From Xestospongia bergquistia (lineage: Eukaryota; Porifera; Demospongiae; Haplosclerida; Petrosiidae), in assembly GCA_963965975.1 (NCBI GenBank), contig OZ014411.1, positions 7,363,001-7,427,000 of the forward strand: a DNA stretch of 64,000 nucleotides, given 5' to 3'. A program made the position numbers and the translations under genes. Positions 14,827 through 63,826 of the stretch are shown here, piece by piece; the stretch's first letter is position 1, and every line of letters begins with the position of its first letter. The notes beneath the pieces were generated by a model. The model had not been told where the DNA came from. It made no database searches and saw only the letters and a list, made by a program, of their open reading frames with translations.

Positions 14827-17800
14827 ATGAAGGCCTATCTGTGGACTGTTCTTATATCAATATTTTTATTACAACTTACGAAGAGTGAAGGTAATTACTG
14901 TGTATAGTCTATTGTGTTATTTCAGTGCTGTTATTGTCAATACATACTTATATTAAGTTTTATAAATAAACTGCTGAGATTTCAGTTTTATGATACGCCA
15001 GATTTACGAACTGTTCTCATTCCTTATAGCTCAATGTACTGATGGTACATTAGATATTATTAATCAAGTTAATGCTGATCTCAAAGACAATGGACAACCC
15101 TTTATTTGTTCAGAAGACACATGGTTTCCTGTCTGTTCTATTGGCTTTGATATCGAAGAAGCACAAGCAGCATGTCGTCAACTTGGATTTGTAGATGGAA
15201 GTAAGTTATAATATTATAATAATAAAGTCTCCTATTACTACATGCATTTATTTCTAAATTGTGTGCTAACCAACGCTCACTAAAATTATAAATTTAAAAT
15301 CTCATTATTCAATTTGTTTTGCGGTTGAATATATATATAATGTGTGGTTTTAGTAAAATGACAAATTTCTAAATGGGACTAAAATAGTAATATATTATAC
15401 TACTGTACATATGTTAAAAGTATGGCTTCCCAGCTACTTTATTAAATGCTAAATATTGAGGTATAGTCAAATGATTTCTTTTAGTACATAGCTATTTCTT
15501 ATACTTGTGAGATCTGAGTATTATAGGAAGTGAGTCAAGTGACACAGCTTCAATTTCATGTATTCCAAACAATGAGATATAGTACATGTTTCTACTATAT
15601 AAATAAAACAAATTTGTTAAAACAAAACATTCAATAATCCATTGTCTAAATCAGTTGCATTCGATTAAAAGTAATAATTTGATGTTCTATTTAATATAGA
15701 TATCATTATTAGCATTATTACTATATTGTTAGTCTATATAGAGCCTTTATTGTCTTTTGTGTCCACATATGTTTATCTGTCTAGTAGCACTAAATGTACT
15801 ATTTGGTACTAATATGTATAATATACTCTTCCTTTTGAAAATGTTCTTATTTTTACAGATTTACTATCAGACACTGAACAACAAACTAATACAATTTTCC
15901 TTGACATTGTTTTTATTTGTAATGGCTATGAAGATCATCTCACTAATGGTGGATGTACTAATAGAACTGTTCATACATGTCCATCACAACAAGGAGGACA
16001 ACTACACTGTTATAATAGTAAGAATTATGAGCACTGATTTGTGACTTAATTTGTTGATTTTATAATTAGGCAGTAACTTTATTGATGCTTTATAGCACAT
16101 TCACTTTTTGTTGTGACTGCTAAGTATCGTCCAATAATCATTTTGGGGCACATGGTATCTATAATATCTACATTCTATGTAACATATATCATTTTGCAAT
16201 ATGTGCTTATATGTGACTTTTTAGAACATATGAAATTAAATTGCATCCTTTAACTGTCAATGCATGTATTAAGCAATGAACACTAACCCAAAGTGCTAGA
16301 AAGTAAGTGTGATGTATAATATGAATAGCTTCTCAGCAGCTTACTCCTCTTGCAGTTTTCAGCTTTCTATAACTGTTGTCTTCTTTTAAATACCTTAAAC
16401 TAAGTCTTGTTTTTCCTGTGCAATAAAAGTATGCCAAAATTTTAAATGTCATACATTGCTAAAATGTAACATTATACCTCATTCATTCATGGCCATTACA
16501 ATAAGTATATAACAATTCTCTTTAAAGGTTTTCTTTCATTTCTATCTGTTAATTTTCCTGGGCCAAAAAAGATATTTGATATTAGCACTGGGTCTACAAG
16601 TGCTCCTTTCAATCTTACTGTTGACATACCACTTGGTACTGATACAATAATGATTGGACATGTAAGTATACACTATAGACACATTATTTTACTTCTAATA
16701 TATATAGTATTTAAAGACTAAGACATTTGTTGTACTTTAATGTACAAGACAAGATAAGTTGCCATATGAAATTGTAGATACTATATATAATGTAGCACAC
16801 AGCATATTAATGCACAGAATGATAAGAATATCGACATAAAATAATATAAATGTGCAGCATTATACCCTCTTTATTAATCCATATTTTCTTTACTGTCTGA
16901 AAGATGATAATGATGAAATGTTTTATTTCTATTTCAGTTCTATGTTAATGGAATGGTTTCCTTTGGCCCTAATATTGTTGAGGATTTTTCATCTGTAAGA
17001 TTGGATGCTAACACGAACTATGACATTGTATTGCCATTCTTGGATACGTCAGGCGTACAAGAAAATGAAGTGTTGTATGGAGAACTACACTTGAGAGCTA
17101 ACCAAACCTTACAGTCACCTCTGTTTACAGTAGTTGACAGATATGTTCAAAGAAATCGAGGTAATGATGGAGTTAACTTTACTGGTCAAGTACTTTTCTT
17201 TGTGGAATCGTTCAGATATGTTAATGATGATGATGAGGTTTGTAATAAATTTAGCAATATTTACATCAGTATAGTTATTCAATAGAATCAACCTATTGAT
17301 AATTAGATTAATTATAGATGGTCATCATTAATAGTTATTAGAGTGTGATGCCAAATATGTGAAATAAATAAACAGACTTTACAGAAATGAGTACAGTGCC
17401 ACTGGCACAAAAGGATTTAATAAAACTGTCTTTTAGTATATTCAGTGTATATTTTAATTGTCCATGAAATAAATTTTTATTTTTGGCTTTTAGGAAATAG
17501 TATTTCAAGCTGTTATTATCAGTGATTACACAAAGACATTCACAATCTTTATATATAAGTGTGATCCTATAATAATACCAATTAATGCTATCATTGGGTA
17601 TAGTATTGCTAACTTTAGTTCTGAGATGTTTCGATATTCTGAGACACCATTCGCTGAACAAATGGCCTGTATTAATACTCAAGTTAATGTGGAGTACTAT
17701 AATTTGATGTATAGCCTGACTAAAAGAGTGCCAGGTATTTCCAATGTACACACACACACACACATATATATATAATGTATTTGTTGTTTTGAATCACAAT

Positions 17801-20800
17801 TACATTTCTGGAGTAGATAGTAAAAAGAAGAAGAGAAGCACTATGAAAATAGTAAAGAGACAAACAGGACCATGTGCTAGTGCTAACCTAACATTATCAA
17901 GCTGTTGTAAACCTTTCCAAGACCCCACTAGTTCATGTCGTGTTACTGTTAATAATGGTGATAGTTGTTACTGTGACTCACTGTGTTTTGAAAGAAATGA
18001 CTGTTGTAATGATGCTCCAGTTCAAATTCCTTGTGTTCCATGTAAGTACTGACATATTTTGTTTACAATCACATTTAGTATTGTCATCAGTATACCATAG
18101 TTATTTTTTCTTTAATGTCTTTAAGTATGTACAAGTGGTACAGTTAATCTAGCTGGTGACACTTATTATCCTCAAGGACCAGTTAGTATATGTCAAGATG
18201 GACTACCAAGGTAACATTTACTTCACAAAGTAACAGTATATATCTAACTAAGATTGATATCATAATATGTCATTTAATAATTTAGTCCATATCAAAACAT
18301 TAACAATGCACTTCATACTTGTACTTACTTAACAGGTTTATACAACAATCAGGTTCTAATTTTTCATTAATAAGTAAATCTGTAGTGTGTCAGCAAATAC
18401 TTGATCAGATTACAACAATTGGATCGGGTAAGTAATACAAAATCATTAATACTTATTAGTTATAGATTGTATGATGCTTATCACATACATACAAGTATCA
18501 AGTGTCACCTGTATGGCCTTCTTTTAATTACAGATTACGTAATGGTAGGAGTTCGTACACAGTCTTCCTTTTTAGTGGATCGAAGAGATATAAATTGTAC
18601 TGGAATTGAAAGGACAGTACAGAATTGTTCATACACAATGTTAAAATCTCATGACATTCTAAGTTCAATGGAAACACTTACTCTTGTTGATTGTAGAGGT
18701 AAGTTACATTGTAATGACATCATGTAAAAATATCCGTTGTTATTTACTTATTAAACAACATGTTATAATTTTACTTTTAAAACAACAAACCTTCAAGACT
18801 TTGTATATTACTGGATTAGGATAAACCTGTGTCTATCAGTCTTCATCATCCAAATAATGTGACATTCACACTTATGTGTGAAAATATATTTCTTAAAATG
18901 GCTTTGTCTATAAACTATAGCATTAGAGAAGTGACTAGTTTCTGAGTCTGAGGAATAAAGAAAAGGGAAGATATTGACCTAAGTTGTTGTTGGTTTGGAT
19001 ATCAAAATCCTTGTAATCTTGATAATTCCATCTAGCTAGAGGACTGAGCCTATTTATTAGGTCTGAGCCATTTTAAATACCATAAGCACTGATGCAGAAA
19101 TCTATGGCATTCTTTATATTGCCATGTTACAAACAAGCATGTTTCTTTCTTGAGTGACTATGTTTGGCAATATATCTGCTATATTAAGCAATATAACTAG
19201 CTATTAATGGCTTAATAGTTGAAGCAAAGTGAATCAGTTTGCAACATGCAGTAAATTGGACCTGTCAACAAGGTAGCACCACAGATGCCAGAAGTGGGAC
19301 ACTGGGCCTTAAGTCCTTGGCCCCACAATAAAAGGACTCCAAACTGCATCTCATCAAATGACATAGAAGCTGTTAAGGCCAATGCATATGTAAAATGTCA
19401 CATTTCGATTGTTCATGTTTTGATCTAAGTCTCACTTTTATATTTACGGTATTTATCTTGAACCATATGTGTTCAAATGCTTGTAAATTAATAGACCATA
19501 GGCATGTTAACATAGCACCATGTGTTATTCATACACTAATAGATGTTAATTAATAGAATATCCAAACATAGCTAAATATGTTGTGTGTAAGAAGTCACAT
19601 TTCATTGTCATGTTGTTGTTATTTCAACAACTACTTTACATAATAATTTAAAATAAGAGCAATATTAAATGATATATACATTGTATGTAAGAAGAAGTAT
19701 GTACATAAAGAATTGTGTGTAATCAAACAAAAAAGTCTTCAGTCTTTGAAATAAAATAACTTAGAAATGAAATGTTATTCCATCTTTATAAAACAATGTT
19801 ATGAACTTTACTAAATGTTAAAGCATCTTCCACCTTTTCCAGTAAGAAAATGAAAACTATGAAGGTATTATTTTTCCATATATTTGAACCCATTTCAAGT
19901 GGGCTTAAAAATTTTATTAGAGCTTCCAGGAGCATTTACCCATCATATAATAAAATACTAACTGCCCTTTAGTAGGAAAACAAAAATCAATGTTATTATT
20001 TTATTCTAAATTTATCAATCATGCCAATGAGCTCAAATATGACCTTTCCAAAGTTAATGATGTCAAAATATATCATTATATCTTGTTGATTGCAGAGATC
20101 AGTAACATTGCAATGACTTCACACATGCATGTCCAATGTTATATATTTAAAAAACAGCTAATATAAATATTTTTACTTTTCAAACCACTAAAATTGAAAT
20201 ACATGAATGAAGTCGACATGAATATGTGTGACATCTATCATTTAAGGCTTAGATGCACATCTACAACTTTTCCATAGATTTTATAGCAGCCAATGCTTCA
20301 AGCTGTATTAATGGTGCAATAAGACTAAATCCACTTAATGAGTCACTACTAGCACCTACTCAAGGATTAGTTGAAATCTGTATTGCTGGAAGATGGAACA
20401 GAACATGTTCATCTGATATTAGTAATGATGATGCTAGAGCTCTTTGTACAATAATGAGACTACCATCAAATGGTAAGATAATTCTGAAATAAAGTTATTT
20501 ACTATGTAGTTCAACTAAACATCTATTCACAATCATTTTTGTCTAACGTTGACCTTTGTTTTTCTGCCATGATTTTTCTTTTCTTCATGTACAAGTTACT
20601 CCAATAATACTTCCTATAAGTGTACTGAATATCTGCAATTATTTTGTTTATTGTTAAAAAGTTATATCTATATTACCTTTATGATCAAAGTATTATTGTA
20701 AAAGAACATTATTGTAATAAGAGCATTATAAAAATAAATCTATATAACTTTCTATTTGAAGTTTAACAAATTACACTTTAAGGAGCATGTCTATTTGATT

Positions 20801-23800
20801 TTAAAGCATATGGTTATGACAATTTGAAAATGATATGTGTTTATAACTACAAATATGTTTAGCATTGAGAATTTTATTCATTTCTAATTTATTTTATATC
20901 ATTACAAATCATTATATTTAAAGCTTAATCATAAATTCTACTTTTTTGTAGTTGTAGGTACAGCTTTAGTAGCCATGATGATCAGTTCAGGTATTACAAC
21001 ACTTCAATGTAATCCCAATATTGCCAGATCATTAAGAGATTGTAGAATACAACAAGGGACTTGTTCTGAACCTGTTGTTGCTGCAATTGCTTGTGGTAGC
21101 TCTGTTATTACTGGTGAGATGTAGTATACTTATATGACAAGCAGTATAGTACGTTTGTTGCTGTAAAATAACTATGAGACTATTCAACAAATTTAAGTAC
21201 TAAGCTATGAAAGACTAAATGTGTTCATTAAAATTAATATTGTTTTAGTTACCATCACATGAAATAGTTTGAAATAATATATCATTTATTATTGATTATT
21301 ATTATAGCAGTGCTCATTTCATTTATAGTATTTCCTGTTCTTTCTGTCACTCAAAGTGCTACCCCTACAGCTACTCAAAGTCAAATTAATAACAATGAGT
21401 CACCTGCTCTGTATATAGGGATTGGCGTATCACTAGGAGCATTAGTAATCTTTGTAACATTGATGTTGTTACTCATACTGATAATAATACGAAAAAAAAT
21501 GGCTACAAGAAAATTTCAGGGAAATGATTTCTGTAGTAAACAAATTGGTTCTTCATACAATCAATATCTTACTAATATAGCACAGTCTTCAACAGTTCTG
21601 TCAAGTAAGTCACTCACCAAATTAGATGCACACAAATGTACTAATGGTAAATTCTGACAGCAAAAATTAAATATTACTCATAAAAATTATAGATAAACAT
21701 TCTTTGTAGCAGGAATTTTTTGGTCTAAAATACTCTTTCATACTAAATCATTAACATTATTACATAGGTAATATGTTAACTGTTGTAAAAGAAGATTTCT
21801 TAGAAAACTTAGAATCATCAGGACTAATTATTCCTTACAGTCATCTCAGACTTTTCGACTGTGTGGGTCAAGGTATGTACTATACACACATGACAATCAG
21901 TTTGTATCACATTGTCTTACAGGAGAATTTGGTATTGTATATAAAGCTCATTTATTTAATAAACAGGGAATACCTACTGATGTAGCTGTCAAGACCCTTA
22001 AAGGTCAGTGAGGGAGTAGCAACAAAAAATAGTACAGCAAAAAATAAAAGTGCAGTCATTACATCATGATAAAAATGTATAAAAAAGTTATTTGAAGTAT
22101 ACAATTGTAACAAAGTTTGTTTTAATTTTATAGCAAATATAAGCATACAATGACAATATCTTATTTCTACTTATAGGTGCTTATTCTCAGGATGATGTCA
22201 ATGATTTATTAATTGAGAGTATTAAAATGAAACAACTGAATCACTTCAATGTAATGACACTTGAAGGAGTCTGTCTTGATGCTGGTCCTGCACCTTTTAT
22301 AGTACTTCCATATATGGCAGGTATATACATAAGTGAATGTGGTATTGCTATATACATTTAGGTTAGAAAAAGTAATGGATATATACAAGCTATACACTAT
22401 AGTCTCAGTTACTCTATGTATAGATACATCATTAATCATAATAGTGTTCAGTATGTAGGGATGGTAACAGAAACAATTTACAAATAGTCACCATATTTAA
22501 TCTATACATTATGATACTTTCAAATGACACCATAATAGAGTTATTAGGCTTATCTGAGCATGTAATTGCCATTATTGAGTATTTTCCCAACTATTAAGAT
22601 GTATAATTTTGTAATGAAATGTTTCTAAAGAGAAAAACTGGAAAGGAATGTATAAGTAAACACTATATAGTACAATGTCAATATAAACACTATATACTCT
22701 TTCACTGCCAAATATAGAAGACTGAATAATTATGTAAAAAGCTCATCATCTCATACTGACTTGCTACTTATGTAGGAAATTAAATATGAATTTATATGAT
22801 CATTCCTACCTTGTTTCTTTTCTTCTTGGCATTGTCATCCCTACATTTTACTCTTTCATTTTTTCAATATGTTTTTATTACTTGTATATATATATTTTAC
22901 ATGTATTGTATATTTTCTTATCACTAACACATTTAACTTCAAAATGCCCTCAAATGTTATATTTCATACATTTCACATTGCTTGTAAATAAATTTAAAAA
23001 CTTCAGGCAAGTTACTACTGTCTGTGTAGCTACAATCCAATAACTATAACAAATAAATTCAAAAAATATGAATGCAGTCTATACATAGGGTTAAACCAGT
23101 TACTTTAGATGCTCTATGCACATCATTCCAACAATAGATTTAAAATTCATTTAACTGGCAAAAATTTTAAGACCATGATATGTAATAGGTCAAAAGAAGA
23201 AAATCTTGTCTTACTTTTTTTAGGGGGAGATTTATTAAGTTATTTGAAGAGAAACAGGGATACTTTAGTAATACTATCTGATGAAGAAGATGTAAATATT
23301 ATAATAAAATGAACACATTGTGACTTTAATTCTTCCAACAATTTAGAAAGGAAATATTGAGATTCAACTACTGTCTATGTGTCTACAAATAGCTAAAGGT
23401 ATGGAATATATAGCTGAACAGAACCTTCTACACAGAGATTTAGCAGCAAGAAATTGCATGTAAGTTAATTCTTGCAATCAATGATCATCTTTATTTATAA
23501 TGTTGCTAAAATACATCAACATATAAATGTACTAACGAACAGATCACCATTCAACAATACTTACTTAGTAATCTGTCTTGTCTTTTTAAATGTTCTTGAT
23601 ATAGGATTGATTATCAAGGTATTATTAAGGTTTCAGACTTCGGACTTTCTAAAAGTTTGTATGAAAAGATGTACTTCAGACAAGATAAAAGTGATGGAAT
23701 CAATCTGCCTATCAAATGGATGGCAATTGAGAGTATTGATGATGGAATATTCTCAGAAAAGTCTGATGTGGTAAATTAGTTTAAGTTTTAAAACGTGTCA

Positions 23801-24336
23801 CTTAACTAATTAATATTATTTCTGGTACACTATTTAGTGGTCTTATGGAGTCACATGTTGGGAAATATTTAGTGGTGGGAAAATGCCATATGGAGGGTTT
23901 ACTCCAATGAGTTTGCTTAAATTGTTACAGGAAGGTTATCGTATGGATAAACCAAACAATGCAGCATGTTCAGAAAAAACGTAAGTTAACAAAATTAGCA
24001 TTAATTTATGACCATAATTGTAATCCTATTCACTATACAGTACTTAATAATTTCATTTTCCATTTTCTCTCTAACTATAGGTATCAATCAGTAATATTAC
24101 AATGTTGGAATAGTTCACCAGAAGAAAGACCTACTTTCTCAGAGTTGGTAGTTATTATTGATAACATGTTAACATCAATGGCTAACTATATCGACTTTAA
24201 TCAGTTCACGTTAGCAGTAGAAGAACAGAAAGGTTAAATCATATTTATATATAGTTTGTTTGTTATTGCAGCATTTTATTTATTTCACATTATAGAAAAA
24301 GTGAGCACCATTGATGAGGAATCATCTGAGATGTGA
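14827..24336 (+). CDS. RTK1: SRCR-NIDO-SMB-SRCR-SRCR receptor tyrosine kinase
   Basis: Single-pass receptor expected to bind an extracellular ligand and phosphorylate tyrosines inside the cell. Exons: 14827-14890, 15030-15200, 15859-16017, 16528-16661, 16938-17237, 17494-17734, 17817-18041, 18126-18210, 18336-18427, 18534-18698, 20278-20472, 20952-21113, 21329-21604, 21768-21872, 21923-22003, 22177-22320, 23224-23291, 23347-23459, 23605-23770, 23838-23980, 24081-24232 and 24296-24336; 1,093 residues, in frame throughout. Signal peptide 1-21 ([17 protein letters not shown]); SRCR 22-131 ([14 protein letters not shown]); NIDO-like 132-356 ([18 protein letters not shown]-type core); basic linker [13 protein letters not shown]; somatomedin-B to 431 ([14 protein letters not shown]); SRCR-like 432-545 and 546-664; Thr-rich stalk; membrane helix about 691-718; kinase about 785-1075 with GQGEFG (790-795), VAVK Lys815, HRDLAARN (918-925), DFG (938-940), activation-loop Tyr946/Tyr950 and [10 protein letters not shown]. 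If the last intron is kept the protein ends after QKG (TAA at 24235-24237), 1,081 residues. Confidence 0.92.
17748..17776. repeat. (CA)n(TA)n microsatellite in RTK1 intron 6
   Basis: A short dinucleotide run in the intron between the NIDO and somatomedin-B exons. The same place in RTK2 holds a longer run. Confidence 0.8.
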
Positions 24337-24997
24337 AAAGAAAAAAATTCAAATAATATTATTTTCATTGATCATTATTCTTTTGTATTTTATTATATTG
24401 TTGATTGTTTTTTTATTGGAATATCTTTTTGACACTCATACAATCAGCAAAAGTCATACTACATTAAATATCATAATTGGAACTAGAGGAAGTAAGATCA
24501 AACAAACTTCTAAAGTCAATATATGTCATCATCCTTCTGTATAGAGGTATTAAAGTGTATAAACTAATCTTATAATTATTGTAAGCATAATCCACAATAC
24601 ACTGTATGTCAGTTGTACAAAAATACAGCATAGTTTTTTTAATAATATTATTGTAACTCCGGTAAAATATTCACAGTTGATATCTTTTCTTTTTCTAACT
24701 AGATTACACAAATACAAAGTACATACATACATGTTGTGGTAACATGTTGTTGAGGAAGAGTAATCTATCTTACTGAATTATCTTTTTTTACTAAAAAGTT
24801 AATTAATTAATTTTTCATAATTTTAAAATGACTATAATACTGTAGTGTTGCTTATTTGACAATATATATGTTGTCTGATTATTGAATCAAATCAAGTTAA
24901 AATGAACACAAATTACACATTTATTATTTATTATCAGGCAGATGTTATATGTTAAGTGGATATTAGGTGATAGTATTGCCTATATAGGGATGGGCAC
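24337..24997. other. RTK1-RTK2 intergenic sequence
   Basis: AT-rich. The first part continues the RTK1 3' flank; the rest has no counterpart near the other copies. Near 24986 the words TAGGGATGGGCACGAT recall a hAT terminus, but there is no partner end. Shared RTK upstream sequence begins at about 24998. Confidence 0.45.
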
Positions 24998-25712
24998 GAT
25001 AATATTGTTATTACTACCTGATGCCACAAAGCATATAGGTGTTAACAAGATCTTTGTTGTCTTTATTGCCACTGCTCTATTAATATGAATCATTGGCCTA
25101 TTTATTAACACAGTAACTTTTATAAATGATATTTCACTCTTAAATGTTATTGGTTGTTTTAATGTTCTAATGATCACTTACATACACACCTTTGTAAAGT
25201 ATTAATAACATCTGCTGAATTTACTATAGAATTGATAGTTCAACAAGTTATCTCTCAGAAGGGACAAACATAGCATGTAGGAATGTCCTGTTATAAATTC
25301 CATAGTGACAACCCTCACATATTGGTGCAGCAACCATGAAAATTCTTGTGTTTAACTGACAACACATGACTCATTGTCACGTGACACACGTATATATTAC
25401 ATTCCTCTGATATTTTATTAATTTCAATTTACCATCTTCAAATATATATTATATTATAATACACTCAGTAATGTCTTTTTGAATTCTAAGTACATTGATA
25501 TCAATAGAGGTAAGTTGTATTATATTATATAGCACTTTTCTACAGAAATAATTAAATAGTAATTCATTAGATTTAGAATCAGAATGCGAATTATATAAAA
25601 ATAAGATAATATACAGGATGTCGAGTATTAATTAATATCGTCAATAGTCTTAGTTTAGCTATTTTTTTGTCCTTACAAAATACAGACTGAGTAGCTAAAT
25701 TCTTTTATATAA
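24998..25712 (+). promoter_or_regulatory. Upstream block of RTK2, copy of the RTK1 upstream block
   Basis: Nearly identical to 14085-14826, including GTCACGTGAC at 25376-25385. It differs mainly by a deletion of about 50 bp around 25530 and scattered substitutions. Inferred promoter region by position and conservation between duplicates. Confidence 0.5.
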
Positions 25713-28709: not shown

Positions 28710-28747
<38 letters not shown>

Positions 28748-50637: not shown

Positions 50638-51953
50638 AAAGAAAACTCAAATATTGTAATTTTCATTGATTATTAAACTTATACTTTATACATGACTTTT
50701 AATTGGAATGATTTATTAATATACAATCAGTAAAAGTCATTATACTATATAGGCTATAGCACATTGGTCACAATTGTAAAAGAATAGAACTGGAGGAAGT
50801 AGGATTTAACATGCAATAACATCAAAATGCTAATTTAGAATGTATTTGATAAGATCATTAGCTACTTATTTTCATGAAAAGTCTTAGGTTTATAGGTTGT
50901 CCTAAAAGTAAATTTGTTTCCTCTCATACTCAACACACAATTTAATAAAATACAAATGTAGTTTTACAATTAGTCTTGATATAGCAACAGTGTAATTAGC
51001 TGTAGTACAAAATTCAGTTTTAATATTATTTGGTGTTATGTGTATATGTTAGCTATATTCATTTCACATTTGTATGAACAGCCAAAACATGTTTTGCTAT
51101 CCTTTTGTGATAATACAATAGTTTACAATTATATACTAAATATTAAACAATAGAACTATGATGTTACAGAAGTGATATATAATTTATTACAACTTGCAGA
51201 TAGAGTGGTAATTCTTATTTTGATGAAAATCCACTGAAATTAAGTTACAGCATATATATATATATATATATATATAGATATATATATATTTATAATATGT
51301 ATGTATGCATGTATGCACATATGTATGTATTTATGTAAGCGTGTATATTTGTGTGTGCATGTGTGCTGGACTAAATTAACCATATTTTTATTTAGGCATG
51401 TCCTAGAGTGCATGATACAAAAGATATCTAGTTATGAATAAGTGTTTGTAGTTTGATTATTAAGATGTGTGTTGTAATAACTACATATATGTAAAACATA
51501 TAGTGAGTTTTATACAACATCTTTAGTGAACAACTCATGTGAAATAACAACCTTTGATCTTTTAGAGCTCATTAGTCATTGCATGTCTGCTGAATTTTTC
51601 ATCTATATACTTGTATCTATTTCTAAATTATCATTGCTTAACATCTATTTTATTTTTCTTTCAATCATGTATTATAGCTAAATTTTCATTTAAATTTGTG
51701 TATTATAGTCAAAGAAAGATTACTTAAGACAGATGAGTTTATGTAGTTTACTATTTGCAGTTTGAATATGCTGTTGACTTAAACTATGCTCAGCTCATGT
51801 ACAGTTAGGCAATATATGCTTTGAAATATTGACACTTCTCTGGAGGTAGATGCAAGAGAACCAGTTTTGTTGAATACACAGAGATGATAGAATGATATAA
51901 ATTTTAATGTAATTTAACTTTTCTTTTACTTAGTTTTATAAGGCAACTACTGG

Positions 51954-51992
<39 letters not shown>

Positions 51993-53268
51993 ACAATTCG
52001 ATACCAGTGGACATTATATTATGTGAGAATGTGTAAAAAAATAAATTTAATGTTATTGCACTCTCATGACATTACCTACAGACTGAAAGGTGAGTATATG
52101 TTGTGATACTTTTAAATGTGCTATGCATTAACACGCAATTCTTGCTGAGCCTGCATGGTGTTCAGTTGACGTTTGAATTAACCATCAGGTTATAGACACC
52201 TGCTCAGTTATTGTAACAGTAACAAACCTTAATTTCATTAGACAATGTTGGTGCACACTTTAATGCATAGTTTGAAAAAGTGGAGCTTTCTAAGTTTTCC
52301 TTCCACTGCATAAAATATTGCAGTACCTTTGATGCTTCATAGCAGACAACATCCATTAAGCTGTGTGGATAGACATTGAATGTCACAAATGTGACAGTTG
52401 AGTAAATAGTTTCATGAAGTAATCATAGATAGTGTATAGTCCTTTCCTGATGCATAACTTCATTTAATTTATAAAACAGCAAGAATTGGTTTAGTTGTGT
52501 GACTGTAACTGCACTAACTGTAATCACTTATAATTGTAGTAGCAATATCTTATGGAGGATATTATTGATAGTAAACATACAGAACTATTATTGATGCAGA
52601 ACCATTTAGTGTGATCATGTTTAGAATGAAATATACAAGGAATGCCTTTCCATTATTCTTACCTATCCACGCGAATGCTTGGTTTAATAATAATAAGTCA
52701 CGCATTCGCTCAAGCGTCCAAGCACAAGCGAAGAAGAGGTGAAATATTTTGCCTAACTTTCTCCGGCTAATAACATGTAAGGAATACGGCGAAACAAATC
52801 ATGTAGGTAGCCAGATTTCCTTCAAATTCATTGTTATATTGAAGAAAACATGAAATAAAATGTTAACAAAAGTCTTGGAAAGAACTTGTTCTCTATCTCT
52901 AAATTGCTTAATCTTATACAAAGTTATTTCTTGAGTTATGTAAAAATCTTAATAAGCTGCTGTTATTCTCATTTTGGCTCTTTTGAATGCATACACCTGC
53001 AAGTGATCATAGAACAGGTTACTAGAATTATTTGTCAAATTTGACTATGGCCACAACATGTTAGAATGATACAAGCAGTCTTTAATTAATTAATAACCTG
53101 AGTAACGTATACTAGCATTGATAAGAGTAATTCCTAGGTTAAAGTAATACAGTTAAGATGCTACAGAAAAAAACAGTAAAAGGAATTATAATCTTTGTAT
53201 AGACAGTTATGACAGTGTGCTTTTGTAAGAGTACATACATCATTAATAAAATATTATATCACTAAAGT
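50638..53268. other. RTK3-RTK4 intergenic region, first part
   Basis: Non-coding. It contains a (TA)n tract at 51251-51289 followed by ATGT-rich repeats, and a (TA)n(TG)n tract at 51953-51990. About 51690-51920 matches the RTK2 downstream region (35640-35830). About 51921-53235 is extra compared with that region, so it was inserted here or lost there. Within it the 60-codon minus-strand frame at 52204-52386 shows no known motif. Confidence 0.5.
51953..51990. repeat. (TA)n(TG)n microsatellite
   Basis: Compound dinucleotide repeat a little inside the 1.3 kb that is missing after RTK2. Confidence 0.85.
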
Positions 53269-53347
53269 GCTTCACCAGATGAGCAGACATAAATGATAAT
53301 GGCTAACTATAGCTAATTCAATCAGTCTTTATCATTAGCAGAAGATG
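53269..53347 (+). pseudogene. Relic of RTK kinase exon 21 (after RTK3)
   Basis: Counterpart of 35862-35941: TTCACCAGATGAGC, AATGGCTAACTATAG, TTCAATCAGTC and ATTAGCAGAAGATG in the order of kinase exon 21. It keeps TTCAATCAGT and ATTAGCAG better than the RTK2-side copy. It was already degraded before the two downstream regions separated. Confidence 0.6.
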
Positions 53348-53460
53348 TCATAAAGACATTAGTAACAAGGATAACAAGCTTTGTTATAAGTAAATCAATA
53401 TAATATAATATATTGTCATCATGTAAGAATATTAATAATATTTACTATTTGGAAATATAT

Positions 53461-53715
53461 GTGACCATAAATACGAAAATGGTACCTAACGCGCAAGTGA
53501 ATTTAGCTTGTGTAGAAACGGTTGCTACGCGTCCATCTTGAACAAAAAGTCAATATTATTTGGTATTCTTGAAGGTCAATCATTGTTCTCATTACATAAT
53601 GAATTTTAATAACTTCCTGTTTAAGATGGCTGCATAGCAACAATTTATACGCAAGCGTTCACTCAAAATTTGTTTGTACGTTAGGTACCATTTTCGTATT
53701 TAAAATTATGGTCAC
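53461..53715. mobile_element. 255-bp inverted-repeat miniature element (MITE)
   Basis: The left end GTGACCATAAATACGAAA then ATGGTACCTAACG is mirrored by CGTTAGGTACCAT and TTTCGTATTTAAAATTATGGTCAC on the right, so the terminal inverted repeats are about 31-35 bp. The matching site after RTK2 (about 36046-36064, GGAAATATATATACTAGAGA) is empty, which fixes the insertion boundaries. Flanking ATATAT on both sides is consistent with a short AT target duplication. No coding capacity. Confidence 0.88.
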
Positions 53716-54483
53716 ATATATAGAGAGAAAAGTAATTCCTATTCCTCCACTCATATTTTACACTGATTTACTGCTCCTAACTGTAAATATATATAAAAGT
53801 TACTACAAATGCATAATATTTTGATTGATTTAATATGCCATTATTGTCAACAGATATGCATAAATTATATTTGATTAAATAATAAATGAGTGAAGTTTTT
53901 GACAATGTGATGAAATATTGAATATAGCGGTCAATTGAACGTTGTCACATTCTATGTATGTAATGCTTGAGTTTGTCATTATGAAATTCACCAAATTCTT
54001 GGTTGCATATTGTCTACTCAATATAATGATGTAACTAAAACAATAACAAGCTAATGGCATCAGTGATAGCTACATACACATATCAAGTTACTTAAGGTGG
54101 GATTGATTTTAAAGAGGTGTCATCTACTATGAAGAGGTATCATATTTTGACCATTAATGGTATCGCAGGAAATAACACATGTTAATAATATGCAATGTGA
54201 TAGAGTTCAATGCTTTATTAAGAGATTACTTACCACAAGTGATAGCATCACACTTTAGAATTTCAGAAAGTGCTTAATTTAATTGCAAAACATTGAAATT
54301 AAGTAACATCATATATATATATATGTGTGTGTGTGTGTATTGGATGTCTTAAATGACATTACAGGAACTAAGACCTGACAACAGTATTGCCTACTCCAGG
54401 TTCACCTACTCAAATTTAATTACAATAGTACAGGTTTGCCTACAGATATCGTAATTCTAATTCTGACAACAACATGACTTGTT
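53716..54483. other. RTK3-RTK4 intergenic region, last part
   Basis: It matches the RTK2 downstream region until about 54016 and then becomes unique. It contains a (TA)n(TG)n tract at 54310-54340. No coding signal. Confidence 0.5.
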
Positions 54484-54902: not shown

Positions 54903-56695
54903 ATGAAGACATCTCTGTGGACTGTTCTTATTTCAATACTTTTATCACAACTTACAAAGAGTGAAGGTAATTACTGTGTACAGGCCATTGTTTATTTCAG
55001 TGTTGTTAATATTAATGTTATATTAATGTAATATTTAAATTAAATTTTATTCATGAACTACGCTATGATATGGTAGATTGCTATTAACTGAAGTGTTCTC
55101 ATTTCTTGTTCATCCTTGTAGCTCAATGTACTGATGGTACAATAGATATTATTAATCAAGTTAGTCCTAGTGTCAAAGACAATGGACAACTCTTTATTTG
55201 TTCAAATGACACATGGTTTCCTCTTTGTTCTACTGGCTTTGATAATGATGCAGCACAAGCAGCATGTCGTCAACTTGGATTTGTAGATGGAAGTAAGTTA
55301 TAATATTACTGGTTATGTAATATTATAGTTATATAGTCTCTTATGGTTTAAATGATTTATTTGTTAATGGTATGAACAATCAATGCTCATTACAATTATA
55401 AATTGAAGCTTTGATTATCCAATTTTTTTCTGATATTAAGTAACCAACAATATTTTGAAAGTTAAAAGCATGGTTTTAGAAAAATTGGCAAATATCTAAA
55501 TGGGACTAAACTAGGCATGTATTAATTTTATTATGCCGGTGTTCATATGTTAATAGTATGGCTTCCCAACAAATTTATTAAATGCCATATAATGGAGGTA
55601 TAGCCAAACAGTTTCTTTTATTACATAGTCACCTCCAACTTTTAAGTGTTACAGGAAAGGAGTCAAGTAACACAGCTCTTATTGCATGTATTTAAAAAAA
55701 TTATATGTTTGCACAAATTTGTTAAACACAAGTTCGTTAACATAAAATACAAATTGTCTAAATCAATTCCATTAGCTTGGTTATATTCTACTTCTTTATT
55801 ACTAAAAAATCATAGTTGACAATATTACTATACCTTCAACCTATATTGCCTTCTCAGTCCATATTTAACTATTGGCACATTGGCATACTACTTTATGCTT
55901 AATATGTTATAATGCTCTTCCTTTTAAACAACATTATTTTTACAGAGTTACAATCAGCCACTAATCAGCAAATTAATACCATTTTCATTGACATTGTCTT
56001 CTTTTGTAATGGCTATGAAGATCATCTCACTAATGGAGGATGTACTAATACAACTGTTCGTACATGTCCATCAGGACAAGGAGCACAACTGTACTGTTAT
56101 AATGGTAAGAACTATGAGCACTGATGCATAACTCAATTTGCTGATAATATTGTACTTAATTTTTTTGATTAACGAGTAAATCTGTTCATGCTTTTTCATT
56201 ACGCATGCCAGGCGGTCTATAAGTGTTTGGGGTCACATGGGCCCCAATTTATTGATATATATATATTACATGTCCACTTACACAATTTAAACGTATAGTT
56301 ATATATGACTTTTAAGAGCAATGAATTAAATTAAACAGCATCAGTTAACTGTCAACACATATAGCACTATGTATACCAGGATAGGTGTGATTAATAAAGC
56401 ACTCACTAACTTACTTCCATCATATTGCCGGCATTTCATAGCTATAGTCTTCCACAAATACTGCTATTAATTATGTAATGTTTGTTAGTCAGTGTTTAAT
56501 TGCAAGGTCAACATCTTTCAAATCGATTACACAGTGATTTTTCAATTATTCTCTTGATATTAATATGAATTTGATAATTAAGAATCTCTGTATACATCTA
56601 TTTTACACCCTATATACTTTATATTCCATATACAGCATTTGAATTTAAATATATAAAAAATATGAGTGTCACTTGCCTATTCATTTATGGTCGTT

Positions 56696-56748
<53 letters not shown>

Positions 56749-59700
56749 CATATCCTTTTATAGGTGTTCTCTCATTTCTATCTAATGATTTTCCTGGACC
56801 AAAAAAGCTATTTGAAATTAGCATTGGGTCTAGAAATGCTCTATTCAATCTTACTGTGAACATACCACTTGGGACTGGTACAGCAATGATTGGACATGTA
56901 AAACAACATAAAAGACTTATCATTTTACTACAAATATAAAGCATTTAATATAAAATACTCATTGTATTTTAAAATTAGTTATCTTACAAGGCATGATTTG
57001 TCAAAATAATACCACATAACAATCTTTCACACTAGAAAAAGTACATCGATGTAGAAACAATATGCTAAAAACATCATGAATCTTTAATATGCAATATTAC
57101 ATTATTAATACATATTTGCTATGCTGTCTAAGAAATGATGTGAGATGATAATTGACAAATGTTTTGTTTGTATTTCAGTTCTATGATATTGGAATGATTT
57201 CCTTTGGTCCTAATATTGTTGATGATTCATCATCTGTCAGATTGGATGCTAACATGACCTATGACATTGTGTTACCATTCTTGCATAAGCCCACCATTAA
57301 CAGACGACTAAATGGAGAGTTCAAAGGAGAGCTACACTTGAGAGCTAATCAAAACTTACAATCACCTCTGTTTACAGTAGTTGACAGATATGTTCAAACA
57401 AATGGTGGTAATGATGGAGTTAACTTTACTGGTGAAGTACTGTTCTTTGTGGAATGGAAGCAAGAAGATAATAATGAAGTTTGTACATAATTATATGTAA
57501 TAAAATTTACATGCATGTGTATAATTTTTTAATTGAATTAAACAAATGATATAACTAACATTTTACTTTACTTTTAGGAAATAGAATTTCAAGCTATTAT
57601 TATCAGTGACTACACAAAGACATTCACAATCTTTATATATGAGTGTGATCCTATGCTAAGACCAGTTACTGCTACCATTGGATATGGTATAGCTAACTTT
57701 AGTTCTGAGACATTTCGGTATTCAGAGACACCATTCACTCAACTAATGGCCTGTATTAATACTCAAGTTAATGTAGGATATTATAATTTGATGTACAGCC
57801 TGACTAAAAGAGTTCCAGGTACTCCCAACTTATATATATATTGTATACAACTTATATGTTCTTTTAAATGACTCTGTAGTAGACAATATAAAGAAGAGAA
57901 GCACTATAAAAATAGTAAAGAGACAAATAGGACCATGTGCTAGTGCTAACCTAACATTATCAAGCTGTTGTAAACCTTTCCAAGACCCCACTAGTTCATG
58001 TCGTGTTACTGATAATAATGGTGATAGTTGTTACTGTGACTCACTGTGTTTTGAAAGAAATGACTGTTGTAATGATGCTCCAGTTCAAGCTCCTTGTGTT
58101 CCATGTAATTAATATACTGACATATGTAGTTAGAATTACACTTAGTATTATCATCAGTTACATGAGCTATTTATTCTTTAATATCTTACAGTGTGTACAA
58201 GTGGCACAGTTAATCAAGCTGCTTATACTTATTATCCTCAAGGACCAGTTAGTATATGTCAAGATGGACTACCAAGGTAACATTTACTTCAAATAACAAC
58301 TGTATATATCTAACTAAGATTGATATCACAATACATCATTCAATAATTTAGTCCATATCAAAACATTAACAATGCACTTTATACTTGTACTTACTTAACA
58401 GGTTTATATGGCAACCAGGTTTTAATTTTTCATTAATAAGTAAAGCTGTAGTTTGTCAACAAATAGTTGATCAGATTATAACAACTGAATGGGGTAAGTT
58501 AAATAAAATGATTAATAGAAAGATTGTACAATGCTTATAACATCCAAAATCATTTACCATCAGTGTTGTTATCTTCTAATTGTAGATAAAGTGAAACTAA
58601 GAAATCGGACACAGCCTTCTTTTTTAGTGGATCGTAGTAACATAAATTGTATTGGAATTGAAAGGACAGTACAGAATTGTTCACATGCCACGTTAAAGTC
58701 TCACACCCTTTTAAATCCAGTCGACCCACTTGCTATTGTTGATTGCAGAGGTTAGTAACATTGCAATGACTTCATGTCATTATCTATTGTTAATACTTAT
58801 CAAAGCAAATGGAATTTTTTTACTGATCGATTTTTTTTACTTATCTAAAATAAAAGACTCTGTACATGTAACTAGATTGAGATAATTCTGTCCAATTAAT
58901 CTTTCATTGTCCTAATATGATATTCTTTTCCATATATATGTGGTGAAAACTGCATGCATTTGTTGGCAAAATAGGATTTGTCCATAAGATATAGTGTTAA
59001 GACAAATAACTACTTTCAGAGTCTGAGTTGTGAACTAAGGATATTGATTTTAAAAGGTGTTGGTTTGGATACTTAAAGAAATCTTATATTTTTTTAAAAA
59101 ATACATCTAGTTAGGATTGAGTCTAATTTTCAAACGTTAGCCATTTAATAATAGACGCTACTGCGGAAATCTTTGGCAGCTGTTCCTGAAATCTTTGCAG
59201 TTGCTGCAGAAATCTCTGGCAACCCTTACATTTCTATGATGCAAACGTGCTTCTTGAATGAGCACTACTTTTGGCATTTTTTACTATGACAGCTGATAGC
59301 TAAATAATCAAAGCAAAGTTTCCAGTGATGTGTAATGACAGCAAATTGATCAAAAAAGACATGTCAACATGATAGCACCAGGGCCACTAAGCTTTTTGCC
59401 CTGTGCCTCACAATAATAGGACTCCAGACTGTAACTCATCACAGGATATGGAAGTTGTTAAGGCCAATCATATGTAAATTGTCACATTTTGATTGTTTAT
59501 GTTTTTCTAAGTCTCACTTTTTAATTTATAATATATCAACTGAAAGTACTAGTCTAGAGCTGTTGAAACTATTCCAATCACTAATAGTGGGCCCAAATTT
59601 TTTATTGCTGCCTTCAGCTCCATGAAACATAGATGCTGTCACAAAAGCATTAATAGAGCTTAAATATTTTAGTGAACTTTTTAGTGGCTTTTGCCCTTTT

Positions 59701-62700
59701 GTAATGCCCTCTAACAGTAGACCTATTAAAATACCCACTGACCTTTTGTAGGAAGACAAAAACAATGTCATTTAGTAATCTTGCTTAAATATGATCACTT
59801 AGGATATTTTGTCATCCTAATACCCCTTCTAAAGGTCAAAATACAATTATATTACTAATAATTATGATTAAAATTATTATATCTGTGATATCTGCTTTAT
59901 CTATAGAGTTTATAGCAGTAGCTAATAATTCAAGATGCATTAATGGTGCAATAAGACTAAATCCACTTAATGAGTCACTACTAGCACCTACTCAAGGATT
60001 AGTTGAAATCTGTATTGCTGGAAGATGGAACAGAACATGTTCATCTAATATTAGTAATGATGATGCTAGAGCTCTTTGTACAATAATGGGACTACCATCA
60101 AATAGTAAGTTCATTTTGAAACAGAAATATGTACCATGTATTTCAATTAAAAGTCTGCTCACATTAATTTCTTCTAACTTTGGCATTTGTTTTTCTGCCA
60201 TGATTTTACCTTTTCTTCAATCACATTTTATTCCAATAGTACTTCCTCTGCATTGAAAATCTGCAAATATATATTATTTATATGTTTAAAAATTATACGT
60301 TTGTGACCAAAGTATTACTGTAAAACCATATTATTGTAATAAAGACATGATAAAAGTTATTTTAATAATCTACTAGATCAAATTTAACAAATTAGATTTT
60401 CGACGTCTATTTGCTCTTAAAGTGTTATATTATAAAAAGAAATAATCAGAAAATTGTACTAGTTTATAACTACAAGTACTTGTAGCATTGAGAGTTAATA
60501 TAATAATATTATTATCTAATAGATTTATATATATAATTACTAACCATTAAATTTATTGCTTAATACATATCCATCACTTCTACTATTTCTTCTTTGTAGT
60601 TGTAGGAACAGCTATAGCAGCCTTTATAGCTAGTTCTGGCATTACAACACTTCAATGTAATCCTTTTGTTGCCAGTTCATTAAGAGATTGTACAATACAA
60701 CAAGGGACTTGTTCTGAATCTGTTGTGGCTGCAATTGCTTGTGGTAGCTCTGTTATTACTGGTGAGCTGTAATATATTTTTGTGACAAGCAGTATAGTAA
60801 GTCTGTTATCTCATAAAGCATTTTAAGTAAAAGGAACTCATATTGACATAAAAAGTGAAAGAAATTGTCCTATGCTAGTCATATTACTATTTTTATATAC
60901 ACAATTGAGCAACATCTCACAAAAAGACTAACTGTAGTGAATGCTGGTTGTTTTACAGTACTTTTTCCAGGTTCATTCCACTGTAGCCTTAAATACAATT
61001 AATAAAACTATCCTTTCTACACCATAAATACAGTTTGTATAAAACAGAAGCACAAATAAAAAACTAGCATGGAAAAAAGTAGGCATTAGTACTAAACCTT
61101 CACACTTCTCTCCCCCTTCTAATTTTTCTGTCAAAGTGGTTTCTCCAAACTAACGATATATGAGCCTATTGATAAGATTGATGGTAGATTTAAAAGAGTG
61201 TTCAGTAAAGTTAGCATCCTTTAAGTTACATTAAATGAAATAGTTTAAATTAATATATTATTTATTATTTATTATCGATTGCAATACTAATTTCATTTAT
61301 AGTATTTCCTGTTCTTGATGTTACTCAAAGTGCTACCCCTACTGCTACTCCAAGTTTAAATGATAACAATCAGTTACATACTTTGTATATAGTGTTTGGT
61401 ATATCACTGGGTGCAGTAGTAATCTTTATAACATTGATACTGTTGCTCATACTAATAATAAAAATCCGGAAAAAAATTGCTAGAAGAACAATTCAGAGAA
61501 ATGATTTCTATAGAACACGAAATGGTTCATCATATGATCGATATGTTAATAATATAGCACTCTCTTCTACAATTTTATCAAGTAAGTTATCAAGATAAAA
61601 TTAGATGCACATGAATACATTAATGGAATAAATTCTGACTGCAAAATATGAACATTATTACTCGAAAAGTTATAGGTAAACATCCTTCTCTTGCAGAGGT
61701 TATTTTTTATGTAACTACTCCTTCCTGCTAACTCATTATCATTATTACATAGGGAATATGTCAACTATAGTAAAAGAAGATTTTTTAGAAAATTTAGAAT
61801 CATCAGGACTAATTATTCCTTACAGTCATCTCAGACTTTTAGACTGTGTAGGTCAAGGTATGTAACTGTACACACATGACAATCAATTATATTGTAATTT
61901 CATACAGGAGAATTTGGTCTGGTATATAAAGCTCATTTATTTGATGAACAAGGAATACCTACTGATGTAGCTGTCAAGACACTTAAAGGTCAGTAAGTGA
62001 GTAGCAACAAATAAAATAACTGCAAATGATAAGTATAGTCACGACATCATTATAAAATTGTATAATGAGAAATGATATTTGAAGTATACAAATTATTTGG
62101 CTTTAATTTAACACAGTTTGTTATTAACTTAATAAAAAATAGATATGCATATTCATATCAATAGCATATTTCAACTTATAGGTTTTTATTCTCAGGATGA
62201 TGTTGATGATTTATTAGTTGAAAGTCTTAAAATGAAACAACTGAATCACTCTAATGTAATGACACTTGAAGGAGTCTGTGTTGATGCTGGACCTGCACCT
62301 TTTATTGTACTTCCATACATGGCAGGTATGTGTTATTTTAGTTATGCTATATATATTCAGTTTAGTAAAGATTATGACTATATATGTAGCAGCTTTCAAA
62401 CTTATAGACTATAGTCCAGTTACTTCAAATTTTCATATAATTATACATATTGTTTACATTTATTGTATTTTATTTCATTGTTTTAATTATCACTAACGCA
62501 TATAACTTAACAATCACCTCAAATGATAAATTTTTTCATGTACAGCAGCTTAAAAATAATTTATATCTCAAATTTAATCCAAAAATATCAATAGAGGTCT
62601 GTATAGTTTAAACCAGCCACTTTAGACATCATATATGAACATCATTCTAGCATATAACTTAAAATTCATCTCACTAAAATTTTAGCAACCATCATTATAA

Positions 62701-63826
62701 TAATGAATCCAAAAAAAGATCATTTATAATTTATTTAGGAGGCAACTTGTTAAGTTATTTGAAGAGAAACCGGGATACCCTTTCTGATGAACAAGATGTA
62801 AAATAATCTAGTGAAAATCAACACATTGTGATTTTAATTCTTACAATAATTTAGAAAGAAAAAATTGAAATTCAACTACTGTCAATGTGTCTACAAATAG
62901 CTAAAGGTATGGAATATATAGCTGAACAAAACCTTCTACACAGAGATTTAGCAGCAAGAAATTGTATGTAAGTTCAATCTTGCAGTCAATGATCATCTTT
63001 ATTTATTCTGTTGCTAAAACACATCAACATATAAATGTACTAACGAACAGATCACCATTCAACAATACTTACTTAGTAATTGTTCTTGTCTTTTTAAATG
63101 TTCTTGATATAGGATTGATTATCAAGGTATTATTAAGGTTTCAGACTTCGGACTATCTAAAAGTTTGTATGAAAAGATGTACTTCAGACAGGATAAAAAT
63201 GATGGAGTTAAACTGCCTATCAAATGGATGGCAATTGAGAGTATTGATGATGGAATATTCTCAGAAAAAACTGATGTGGTAAATTAGTTTAAATTTTAAA
63301 ATATGTCACTAAACTAATTAACATTATTTCTGGTATATTATTTAGTGGTCTTATGGAGTGACATGTTGGGAAATATTTAGTGGTGGAAAGGTTCCATATG
63401 GAGGACTTACTCCAATGAGTCTGCTTAAAATGTTACAAGAAGGTTATCGTATGGATAAACCAAACAATACAGCATGCTCACAAAATACGTCAGTTATCAA
63501 AAAATAGAACTATTATATAACTGCAATAGTATTTTTTACTTAGTTTACAATGATTAATGATTTGATTCTCTATCCTCTCTTTACATAGGTATGAATCAGT
63601 AATGTTACAATGTTGGAATAGTTCACCTGATGAGAGACCTACCTTCTCAAATTTGGTGGCTACTATTGAGAACTTGTTAACATCAATGGCTAATTACATT
63701 GACTTCAATCAGTTCACATTAGAAATTGAAGAACAGAAAGGTTAAGTTATATTTACATGTTGTTTGATTATTTTCATAATGCAGAAAATAGCAGACAAAA
63801 CTGATAAGGGATCATCTAAGCTGTGA
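54903..63826 (+). CDS. RTK4: most diverged paralogue, complete
   Basis: Exons: 54903-54966, 55122-55292, 55946-56104, 56764-56897, 57179-57478, 57578-57818, 57883-58104, 58192-58276, 58402-58493, 58586-58750, 59907-60104, 60600-60761, 61303-61581, 61753-61857, 61908-61988, 62182-62325, 62739-62797, 62855-62967, 63113-63278, 63346-63488, 63589-63740 and 63792-63826; 1,089 residues, in frame at every junction. Same domains. The NIDO patch is very different ([18 protein letters not shown]), as are the second SRCR ([14 protein letters not shown]) and the linker ([13 protein letters not shown]). The membrane segment reads [20 protein letters not shown]. The kinase keeps [21 protein letters not shown] and [10 protein letters not shown] but lacks three residues after the hinge ([11 protein letters not shown]). 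For exon 22 the acceptor AAAATAG is needed to keep the frame ([11 protein letters not shown]). Retaining the last intron would give a stop at TAA 63743-63745. Confidence 0.9.
56697..56741. repeat. (AT)n microsatellite in RTK4 intron 3
   Basis: About 22 uninterrupted AT units directly before the NIDO exon acceptor; absent from the other copies. Confidence 0.9.

Follow-up and report, generated by a model that had tools for sequence, protein, structure and literature searches.

In the window, the whole 64-kb stretch of plausibly sponge-derived DNA analysed here, lie four predicted genes on the + strand, each with 22 exons and a product of 1084-1090 residues (Table 1). The first-pass annotation had placed them at 14827-63826 and traced each through 21-22 exons with the frame kept; the span is exact, with an ATG at 14827 and the final stop codon ending at 63826, and all four models indeed have 22 exons, with identical phases at the 21 introns. 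The frame is open throughout each model and closes with a single, terminal stop, free of internal stops and frameshifts. Splice sites were among the criteria by which the exon borders were placed manually, so the tally of AG acceptors (84/84) and GT donors (83/84) in the four models is not independent of that choice. The equal phases and open frames, together with the selection described below, are support that is independent of it.

For copy 1, an acceptor upstream of the one used for exon 13 was discarded, as it is missing from copies 3 and 4. The leader of the same copy falls below the hydropathy threshold of 1.6 and resembles a signal peptide by eye. Inspection by eye also shows that exon 11 of copy 4 could start one codon earlier, and that an upstream AG at its exon 22 would yield a different short tail.

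The one donor that departs from GT belongs to intron 20 of copy 3, the sole intron of the 84 that can be retained in frame; its retention leaves the frame open to the C-terminus and gives 1111 residues. The next GT donor (+4) and skipping of exon 20 were rejected as routes. Since these would give products of 1031 and 982 residues, respectively, GC-AG splicing from a weak donor, or retention, is preferred. The earlier description of four intact copies is thus borne out by the open frames in all four and qualified by this missing GT donor, and the architecture and near-intactness of the copies stand.

Table 1. Coordinates of the four genes, their modules and related features in the window
Feature	Position	Strand	Remarks
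Tandem duplication unit 1	14086-24416	+	94.7% identical to 24999-35378
Tandem duplication unit 2	24999-35378	+	blastn match to unit 1
Copy 1 (c1) gene	14827-24336	+	22 exons, 1090 aa
c1 exon 1, ATG and leader resembling a signal peptide	14827-14890	+	leader judged by eye
c1 exons 2-3, SRCR1	15030-16017	+	phase 1-1; Pfam E 1.1e-9
c1 exons 4-6, NIDO-like	16528-17734	+	phase 1-1; 23.1 bits against a cut-off of 25, E 8.3e-5
c1 exon 7, somatomedin-B-like plus a basic linker	17817-18041	+	phase 1-1; 25.0 bits, cut-off 23.1
c1 exons 8-10, SRCR2 (divergent)	18126-18698	+	phase 1-1; 22.9 bits against a cut-off of 26.1, E 1.1e-4
c1 exons 11-12, SRCR3	20287-21113	+	phase 1-1; E 1.9e-7
c1 exon 13, TM (helix inside aa 685-722) plus juxtamembrane stretch	21329-21604	+	acceptor common to 4/4 copies
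c1 tract 96-99% identical to c3, introns included	21541-22790	+	divergence comparison
c1 exons 14-22, tyrosine kinase followed by a short C-tail	21768-24336	+	model, Pfam, motifs
Copy 2 (c2) gene	25713-35306	+	22 exons, 1086 aa
c2 SRCR1	25925-26945	+	
c2 NIDO-like	27481-28696	+	
c2 SMB-like	28795-29016	+	
c2 SRCR2	29110-29681	+	
c2 SRCR3	31277-32099	+	
c2 TM	32315-32590	+	
c2 kinase	32754-35306	+	
Copy 3 (c3) gene	39874-50637	+	22 exons, 1090 aa
c3 SRCR1	41653-42655	+	
c3 NIDO-like	43198-44415	+	
c3 SMB-like	44478-44702	+	
c3 SRCR2	44802-45361	+	
c3 SRCR3	46270-46894	+	
c3 TM	47668-47955	+	
c3 kinase	48119-50637	+	
c3 intron 20	50326-50388	+	63 nt with a GC donor and no in-frame stop; retention would insert 21 codons
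Copy 4 (c4) gene	54903-63826	+	22 exons, 1084 aa
c4 SRCR1	55122-56104	+	
c4 NIDO-like	56764-57818	+	
c4 SMB-like	57883-58104	+	
c4 SRCR2	58192-58750	+	
c4 SRCR3	59919-60761	+	
c4 TM	61303-61581	+	
c4 kinase	61753-63826	+	

Extracellular modules

The predicted order SRCR-NIDO-SMB-SRCR-SRCR-TM-kinase is supported by the domain searches, unevenly across modules. Pfam cut-offs were 26.1 bits for SRCR, 25 for NIDO (PF06119) and 23.1 for Somatomedin B (SMB, PF01033), and isolated pieces were run for all five modules of copies 1 and 4 and for NIDO also of copies 2 and 3. In the whole proteins, SRCR scores 60.0-70.8 bits over three stretches in every copy, passing the superfamily cut-off. As isolated pieces of copies 1 and 4, SRCR1 (38.9 and 42.1 bits) and SRCR3 (31.7 and 36.2) lie above that value and SRCR2 (22.9 and 19.5, E 1e-4 to 1.2e-3) below it. 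The SMB module is below its cut-off in all four whole proteins (13.2-16.4 bits) and above it as an isolated piece (25.0 in copy 1, 23.3 in copy 4). NIDO stays under its gathering cut-off in all four copies, both in the whole proteins (17.6-19.7 bits) and as pieces (20.9-23.8 bits, E 5e-5 to 4e-4), and the module is therefore called NIDO-like. Among eight shuffled controls, four of the copy 1 NIDO piece and four of its SRCR2, none gave a family match at E 1 or below. Of the domains claimed in the first pass, Pfam thus recovers the kinase, SRCR1, SRCR3 and the isolated SMB, with NIDO and SRCR2 remaining below cut-off.

Each of the five extracellular modules is bordered in phase 1 on both sides, as exon shuffling would give. 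A phase-1 intron, 8, 12 and 8 residues past the cysteine of a CRQLG-like element in SRCR1, SRCR2 and SRCR3, respectively, is common to the three and ties SRCR2 to the other two. The SRCR region, with SRCR1 as the best stretch, matches the SRCR superfamily proteins CD163 (M130) and PIT54, with E values of 6e-10 to 8.4e-8 in the top six matches; neither protein is known to carry a kinase. The ectodomain profile found no relative in the prokaryotic and viral contigs searched, a result that, given their origin, says nothing about sponges.

Membrane helix and kinase

In all four proteins, the strongest hydrophobic segment lies within residues 683-723, with a 21-residue mean of 3.1-3.2, and separates the ectodomain from the kinase by a single membrane helix, as in a receptor tyrosine kinase (RTK). 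Weaker segments (up to 2.04) are found just N-terminal of it in each copy, and copy 4 has a further one at 596-617. The kinase domain is recognised by Pfam at E 4e-82 to 8e-81 in the whole proteins. The kinase motifs named in the first pass are present in all four spliced models; the catalytic motifs [21 protein letters not shown] and [10 protein letters not shown] do not vary among the copies, and the tyrosine-kinase-type set is complete, as expected of an RTK. Two activation-loop tyrosines (Y943 and Y947 in copy 1) are also invariant, the juxtamembrane tyrosines Y738 and Y741 (copy 1) are kept in all four, and so is the C-tail site NYIDF (Y1063 in copy 1), which resembles SHP2-type sites.

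By ranked scores in PDB sequence searches, the kinase appears nearest to Met (221 bits), Mer (216) and Ret (211) among the best 60 matches, one EGFR-labelled match aside. In the Met/Ron, TAM (Mer) and Ret families the ectodomains are built of Sema/PSI/IPT, Ig/FN3 and cadherin modules, respectively, none of which was matched by Pfam in the four proteins at E up to 1. The kinase profile gave one distant match in the prokaryotic contigs (27% identity, Clostridium-labelled contig L001) and none in the viral ones.

Divergence and duplication history

Exons diverge less than introns (0.087 against 0.182 for copies 1 and 3, 0.115 against 0.289 for copies 1 and 4, and 0.120 against 0.297 for copies 3 and 4), which indicates selective constraint on the exons. 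Where copy 4 is one of the pair (three pairs), dN/dS is roughly threefold higher in the ectodomain (0.64-0.69) than in the kinase (0.20-0.22), a contrast reached in 0 of 1000 permutations each. It does not extend to the other three pairs, being non-significant for copies 1 and 3 (144/1000) and copies 2 and 3 (65/1000) and reversed, on few changes, for copies 1 and 2 (903/1000). Since no module has a dN/dS interval lying above 1, diversifying selection is unsupported.

Copies 1 and 2 lie in tandem duplication units, and the tract of copy 1 at 21541-22790 looks like the product of gene conversion with copy 3. The 94.7% identity of the two units over 10.5 kb and their intron divergence of 3.2%, which high heterozygosity could also produce, would fit a misassembly that placed two alleles one after the other, leaving three genes only. 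Such an assembly duplication is unlikely, as the blastn match (E 1e-5) ends at 14086/24999 and 24416/35378, the flanks past these ends are not common to both units, and 35632-36353 downstream of copy 2 matches the sequence downstream of copy 3 instead. Slightly less probable still is that at least one copy is a recent pseudogene: the GC donor of copy 3 and the overall dN/dS of 0.69 between copies 1 and 2, again on few changes, point that way, but no model is interrupted, the exons are more constrained than the introns, and copy 3 reads through to its C-terminus even with intron 20 retained.

Proposed origin and function

The DNA itself shows the gene models and the order of their modules, a hydrophobic helix, a full set of catalytic motifs and exons under selective constraint. 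The four copies are quite probably paralogous single-pass RTKs of a lineage-specific family with a presumed recognition role, in which extracellular modules with phase-1 borders (SRCR, NIDO-like, SMB-like, SRCR, SRCR) were joined onto a Met/Mer-like kinase; tandem duplication gave rise to the copies, with gene conversion acting locally. The N-terminal SRCR/NIDO-like region would bind a surface, matrix or microbial ligand that clusters the receptors, upon which the kinases may cross-phosphorylate on the activation-loop tyrosines, and SH2 proteins would dock at the juxtamembrane and C-tail sites. The signalling output would be common to the copies, and ligand preference would differ among them.

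The first pass had proposed a recognition or adhesion receptor, a role that is still putative. NIDO and SMB are known as matrix or adhesion modules, and the kinase scores nearest Met and Mer; these features favour cell-matrix or cell-cell adhesion RTKs of a DDR- or Met-like kind as the main role, a plausible reading with somewhat less than an even chance, although modules alone do not fix function. Receptors acting mainly in microbial pattern recognition and signalling through their kinase are rather unlikely by comparison: the same two modules speak against them, and positive selection is not significant, but the ectodomain outpaces the kinase in the pairs with copy 4, one SRCR gene is induced by microbial molecules in A. 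aerophoba (PMC6208332), and more than 30 respond in juveniles of A. queenslandica (cited in PMC6208332). A more specific proposal, which we regard as doubtful, is a lineage-specific class of recognition RTKs whose variable ectodomain couples the detection of microbes or non-self directly to phosphotyrosine signalling, with tandem duplication diversifying the copies and gene conversion keeping the membrane-kinase junction alike.

Were these working immune or self/non-self receptors, they would exemplify how recognition could be linked to phosphotyrosine signalling in early animals. The four paralogues also offer a natural experiment in ectodomain divergence over a shared kinase, and their clean phase-1 borders illustrate a way of building a new ectodomain for an RTK.

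Comparison with known sponge systems

Scavenger-type modules wired directly to a tyrosine kinase are, to our knowledge, unusual outside sponges. The first pass knew of no described RTK class of this composition, and among the titles, abstracts and passages covered, a scope with most of the subscription literature outside it, none describing NIDO, SMB and SRCR together on a single RTK was found; genes combining SRCR and kinase are, however, already known from sponges (PMC10855680; PMC6208332). In one study, 14 sponge SRCR genes (9.03%) carry PK_Tyr_Ser-Thr, a tyrosine-kinase-type domain as in the four genes here, and 158 of 296 sponge SRCR genes lie in tandem arrays (PMC10855680). The main text never mentions NIDO, nidogen or somatomedin. 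The four genes may even be among those with a kinase domain counted there. A single sentence on Aplysina aerophoba and Dysidea avara likewise reports SRCR and a protein kinase in one gene, in a passage that gives no module order and a main text in which NIDO and somatomedin do not occur (PMC6208332). Since SRCR-kinase genes and tandem SRCR arrays have been reported, the novelty of the present family lies in the NIDO-SMB combination. Its joining with SRCR and a kinase may itself already have been drawn in a receptor figure for Halichondria panicea, the legend of which lists the symbols SR (SRCR), SO (somatomedin B-like), NIDO and TyrKc (tyrosine kinase), the types of domain described here (PMC8242945).

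Gene models and kinase domains

The window is AT-rich (31.1% G+C), self-comparison gives blocks repeated among four units, and HRDLAARN and KWMAIES occur at four places on the + strand. Exons were assembled by hand in unit 1 and then transferred to units 2-4. The four tandem SRCR-NIDO-SMB-SRCR-SRCR receptor tyrosine kinase (RTK) genes proposed in the first-pass annotation, here copies c1 to c4, are real and were well described there; each is modelled with 22 exons, and all 21 intron phases are identical across copies, with a single, terminal stop in 4/4. Over the 84 introns, acceptors are AG in 84 and donors GT in 83, a tally that is not an independent test, since splice sites were themselves a criterion when borders were chosen. 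The copies had also been called intact, which holds for the frame and the lone terminal stop but not for intron 20 of c3, the sole intron with a non-GT donor.

Features of the window, with coordinates counted from its start
Feature	Position	Strand	Remarks
c1 gene	14827-24336	+	22 exons, 1090 aa
c2 gene	25713-35306	+	22 exons, 1086 aa
c3 gene	39874-50637	+	22 exons, 1090 aa
c4 gene	54903-63826	+	22 exons, 1084 aa
c3 intron 20	50326-50388	+	GC donor, 63 nt
Exon 21 donors, c1-c4	24232, 35202, 50540, 63740		GTTAA
c1-c3 near-identical tract	c1 21541-22790, c3 about 47900-49140	+	exon 13 end to intron 16
Duplicated units	14086-24416, 24999-35378		94.7% identical
Downstream of c2 and c3	35632-36353, 51681-54016		piecewise match
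Tandem duplication, c3 intron 1	40796-41172, 41173-41548		377 bases, 98.1% identical
Exon 10 end with adjoining intron, and decayed copy, c1 intron 10	18682-18789, 20081-20191
The same, c2 intron 10	29665-29786, 31062-31186
DDE_Tnp_1_7 transposase fragment	2096-2626	-	E 9.2e-19
ORF between c2 and c3	38546-39334	-	HTH_psq, E 2.5e-7

Intron 20 is 100 nt long in c1, c2 and c4, and the shorter c3 form is the only one of the 84 introns that spans a whole number of codons and can be translated in frame without meeting a stop. Its retention is predicted to add 21 codons and to keep the C-terminus. It may be spliced as a GC-AG intron, or it may have turned from intron to exon only recently, as possible new exon sequence. 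All four copies have a GTTAA donor at exon 21, so that an unspliced intron 21 gives an immediate stop after EEQKG, and two alternative C-termini are possible by this route.

The glycine loop, the VAVK lysine, [11 protein letters not shown] and [10 protein letters not shown] are preserved in all four kinase domains; the annotation had likewise noted all kinase motifs. Against PDB sequences, a kinase profile scores Met at 221, Mer at 216, Ret at 211 and Ron, the macrophage-stimulating protein receptor, at 204 bits (best 60 of 225 matches), and single-sequence scores are almost level (Ret 208, Mer 207.5, Met 206; best 60 of 809). The EGFR-labelled chain 9p9u scores higher in both (311 and 314 bits; best 60 of 225 and 60 of 809), where 2 stretches in the first and 0 in the second pass by themselves, and is suspected of owing this to two kinase copies in one chain; leaving it aside, the kinase is by sequence score nearest to Met, Mer and Ret among the best 60 matches listed. 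Two activation-loop tyrosines (LYEKMYF) and the C-tail motif NYIDF are invariant, and the juxtamembrane SSYNQYLTN is common to c1-c3, with SSYDRYVNN in c4. By resemblance to SH2 motifs, the juxtamembrane and C-tail tyrosines are candidate docking sites.

Extracellular modules

In whole proteins of all four copies, Pfam detects PK_Tyr_Ser-Thr (E 4e-82 to 8e-81) and three SRCR stretches (E 1.3e-19 to 3e-16), while NIDO (17.6-19.7 bits, cut-off 25) and Somatomedin_B (SMB; 13.2-16.4 bits, cut-off 23.1) stay under their cut-offs. Modules were also scanned as isolated pieces, all five for c1 and c4 and only NIDO for c2 and c3. The claimed ectodomain is borne out by Pfam for the first and third SRCR modules (SRCR1, SRCR3), which pass as pieces, and for SMB, which barely passes, but SRCR2 (22.9 bits in c1, 19.5 in c4) and NIDO (23.1, 21.4, 23.8 and 20.9 bits in c1 to c4) fall below the cut-offs. 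None of eight shuffled controls matches any Pfam family at E up to 1. DUF6365 competes weakly for the NIDO-like region (E 0.014 to 0.31), as does DUF4992, at E of about 0.09, for the SMB piece. The NIDO match covers roughly profile positions 5-124 of 186 in the pieces, the last third being without match, and 46-171 in whole c4; because of the sub-cut-off scores and partial coverage, the module is called NIDO-like.

A phase-1 intron lies 8, 12 and 8 residues past the cysteine of a CRQLG-like element in SRCR1, SRCR2 and SRCR3, respectively, which we read as the same place and as separate support for SRCR2; the three introns do not fall in one column of the automatic alignment because loop length varies there. 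SRCR2 has one extra intron, of phase 2. The N-terminal leader, below the hydropathy threshold used, looks by eye like a putative signal peptide, and the basic stretch KKRST.KIVKRQ between NIDO and SMB, invariant save one variable position, could be a furin-like protease cleavage site.

Duplication and divergence

The match between the c1 and c2 units stops at their ends. Sequence downstream of c2 resembles that downstream of c3, which has extra sequence between the matching pieces. A tract of c1 is 96-99% identical to c3, introns included; upstream, identity falls to 90% and then 82%, and downstream windows of 92%, 92% and 96% give a gradual edge. Gene conversion would give such a tract, which joins c1/c2 and c3. 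Intron 1 of c3 carries a tandem duplication. The ORF between c2 and c3, with a weak Tc5 HTH match below cut-off, is probably a transposon fragment, and a transposase fragment lies near the window start.

Pairwise comparison of the copies; the six pairs have sequences in common and are not independent
Pair	Protein identity	Exon/intron divergence	Ectodomain/kinase dN/dS	Permutations
c1-c2	95.2%	0.025/0.032	0.63/1.28 (few changes)	903/1000
c1-c3	86.5%	0.087/0.182	0.49/0.34	144/1000
c1-c4	80.3%	0.115/0.289	0.69/0.22	0/1000
c2-c3	85.9%	0.092/0.180	0.53/0.32	65/1000
c2-c4	80.1%	0.117/0.288	0.67/0.21	0/1000
c3-c4	79.7%	0.120/0.297	0.64/0.20	0/1000

Overall dN/dS is 0.69 for c1-c2, the pair with reversed ectodomain and kinase values, and 0.48-0.49 for the remaining five. 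Among the five extracellular modules, dN/dS peaks at SRCR1 in 5/6 pairs (its values are 0.72-1.13 over all six), but all of the intervals include 1. We infer recognition RTKs with a kinase in common and an ectodomain that changes faster.

Module assembly and relation to known sponge receptors

Symmetry of 1-1 phases is a classical mark of exon shuffling. Phase-1 borders are found on SRCR1, NIDO-like, SMB, SRCR2, SRCR3 and the membrane exon, and introns within the kinase are of mixed phases. The decayed exon 10 copies in intron 10 of c1 and c2 (74-77% identity) are perhaps what is left of an SRCR exon that was lost or duplicated.

The annotation knew of no described RTK class of this kind; the sponge origin it assumed is plausible, also by general resemblance. 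Full-text literature searches found no described RTK combining NIDO, SMB and SRCR, and as far as they reach the full order up to the kinase seems undescribed, but SRCR receptors with a kinase, in tandem in sponges, are already known from the portions available of the sources: 14 sponge SRCR genes (9.03%) carry PK_Tyr_Ser-Thr and 158 of 296 lie in tandem (PMC10855680), and SRCR with protein kinases is mentioned for two sponges, along with SRCR genes that respond to microbes (PMC6208332). The full order may already be drawn in a figure of PMC8242945, whose legend names SR, SO (somatomedin B-like), NIDO and TyrKc, co-occurrence not being stated there; the same paper also mentions a group of tyrosine-kinase receptors in A. 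queenslandica that has been suggested to be specific to Porifera. Elsewhere, again in excerpt, SRCR domain counts range from 68 to 408 over seven sponges (PMC12465263), and RTK ectodomain shuffling and a sponge-specific Src family are discussed (PMC8662651). Whereas expanded sponge SRCR genes have three exons per SRCR domain in the available part of PMC10855680, SRCR1 here has two, SRCR2 three and SRCR3 two.
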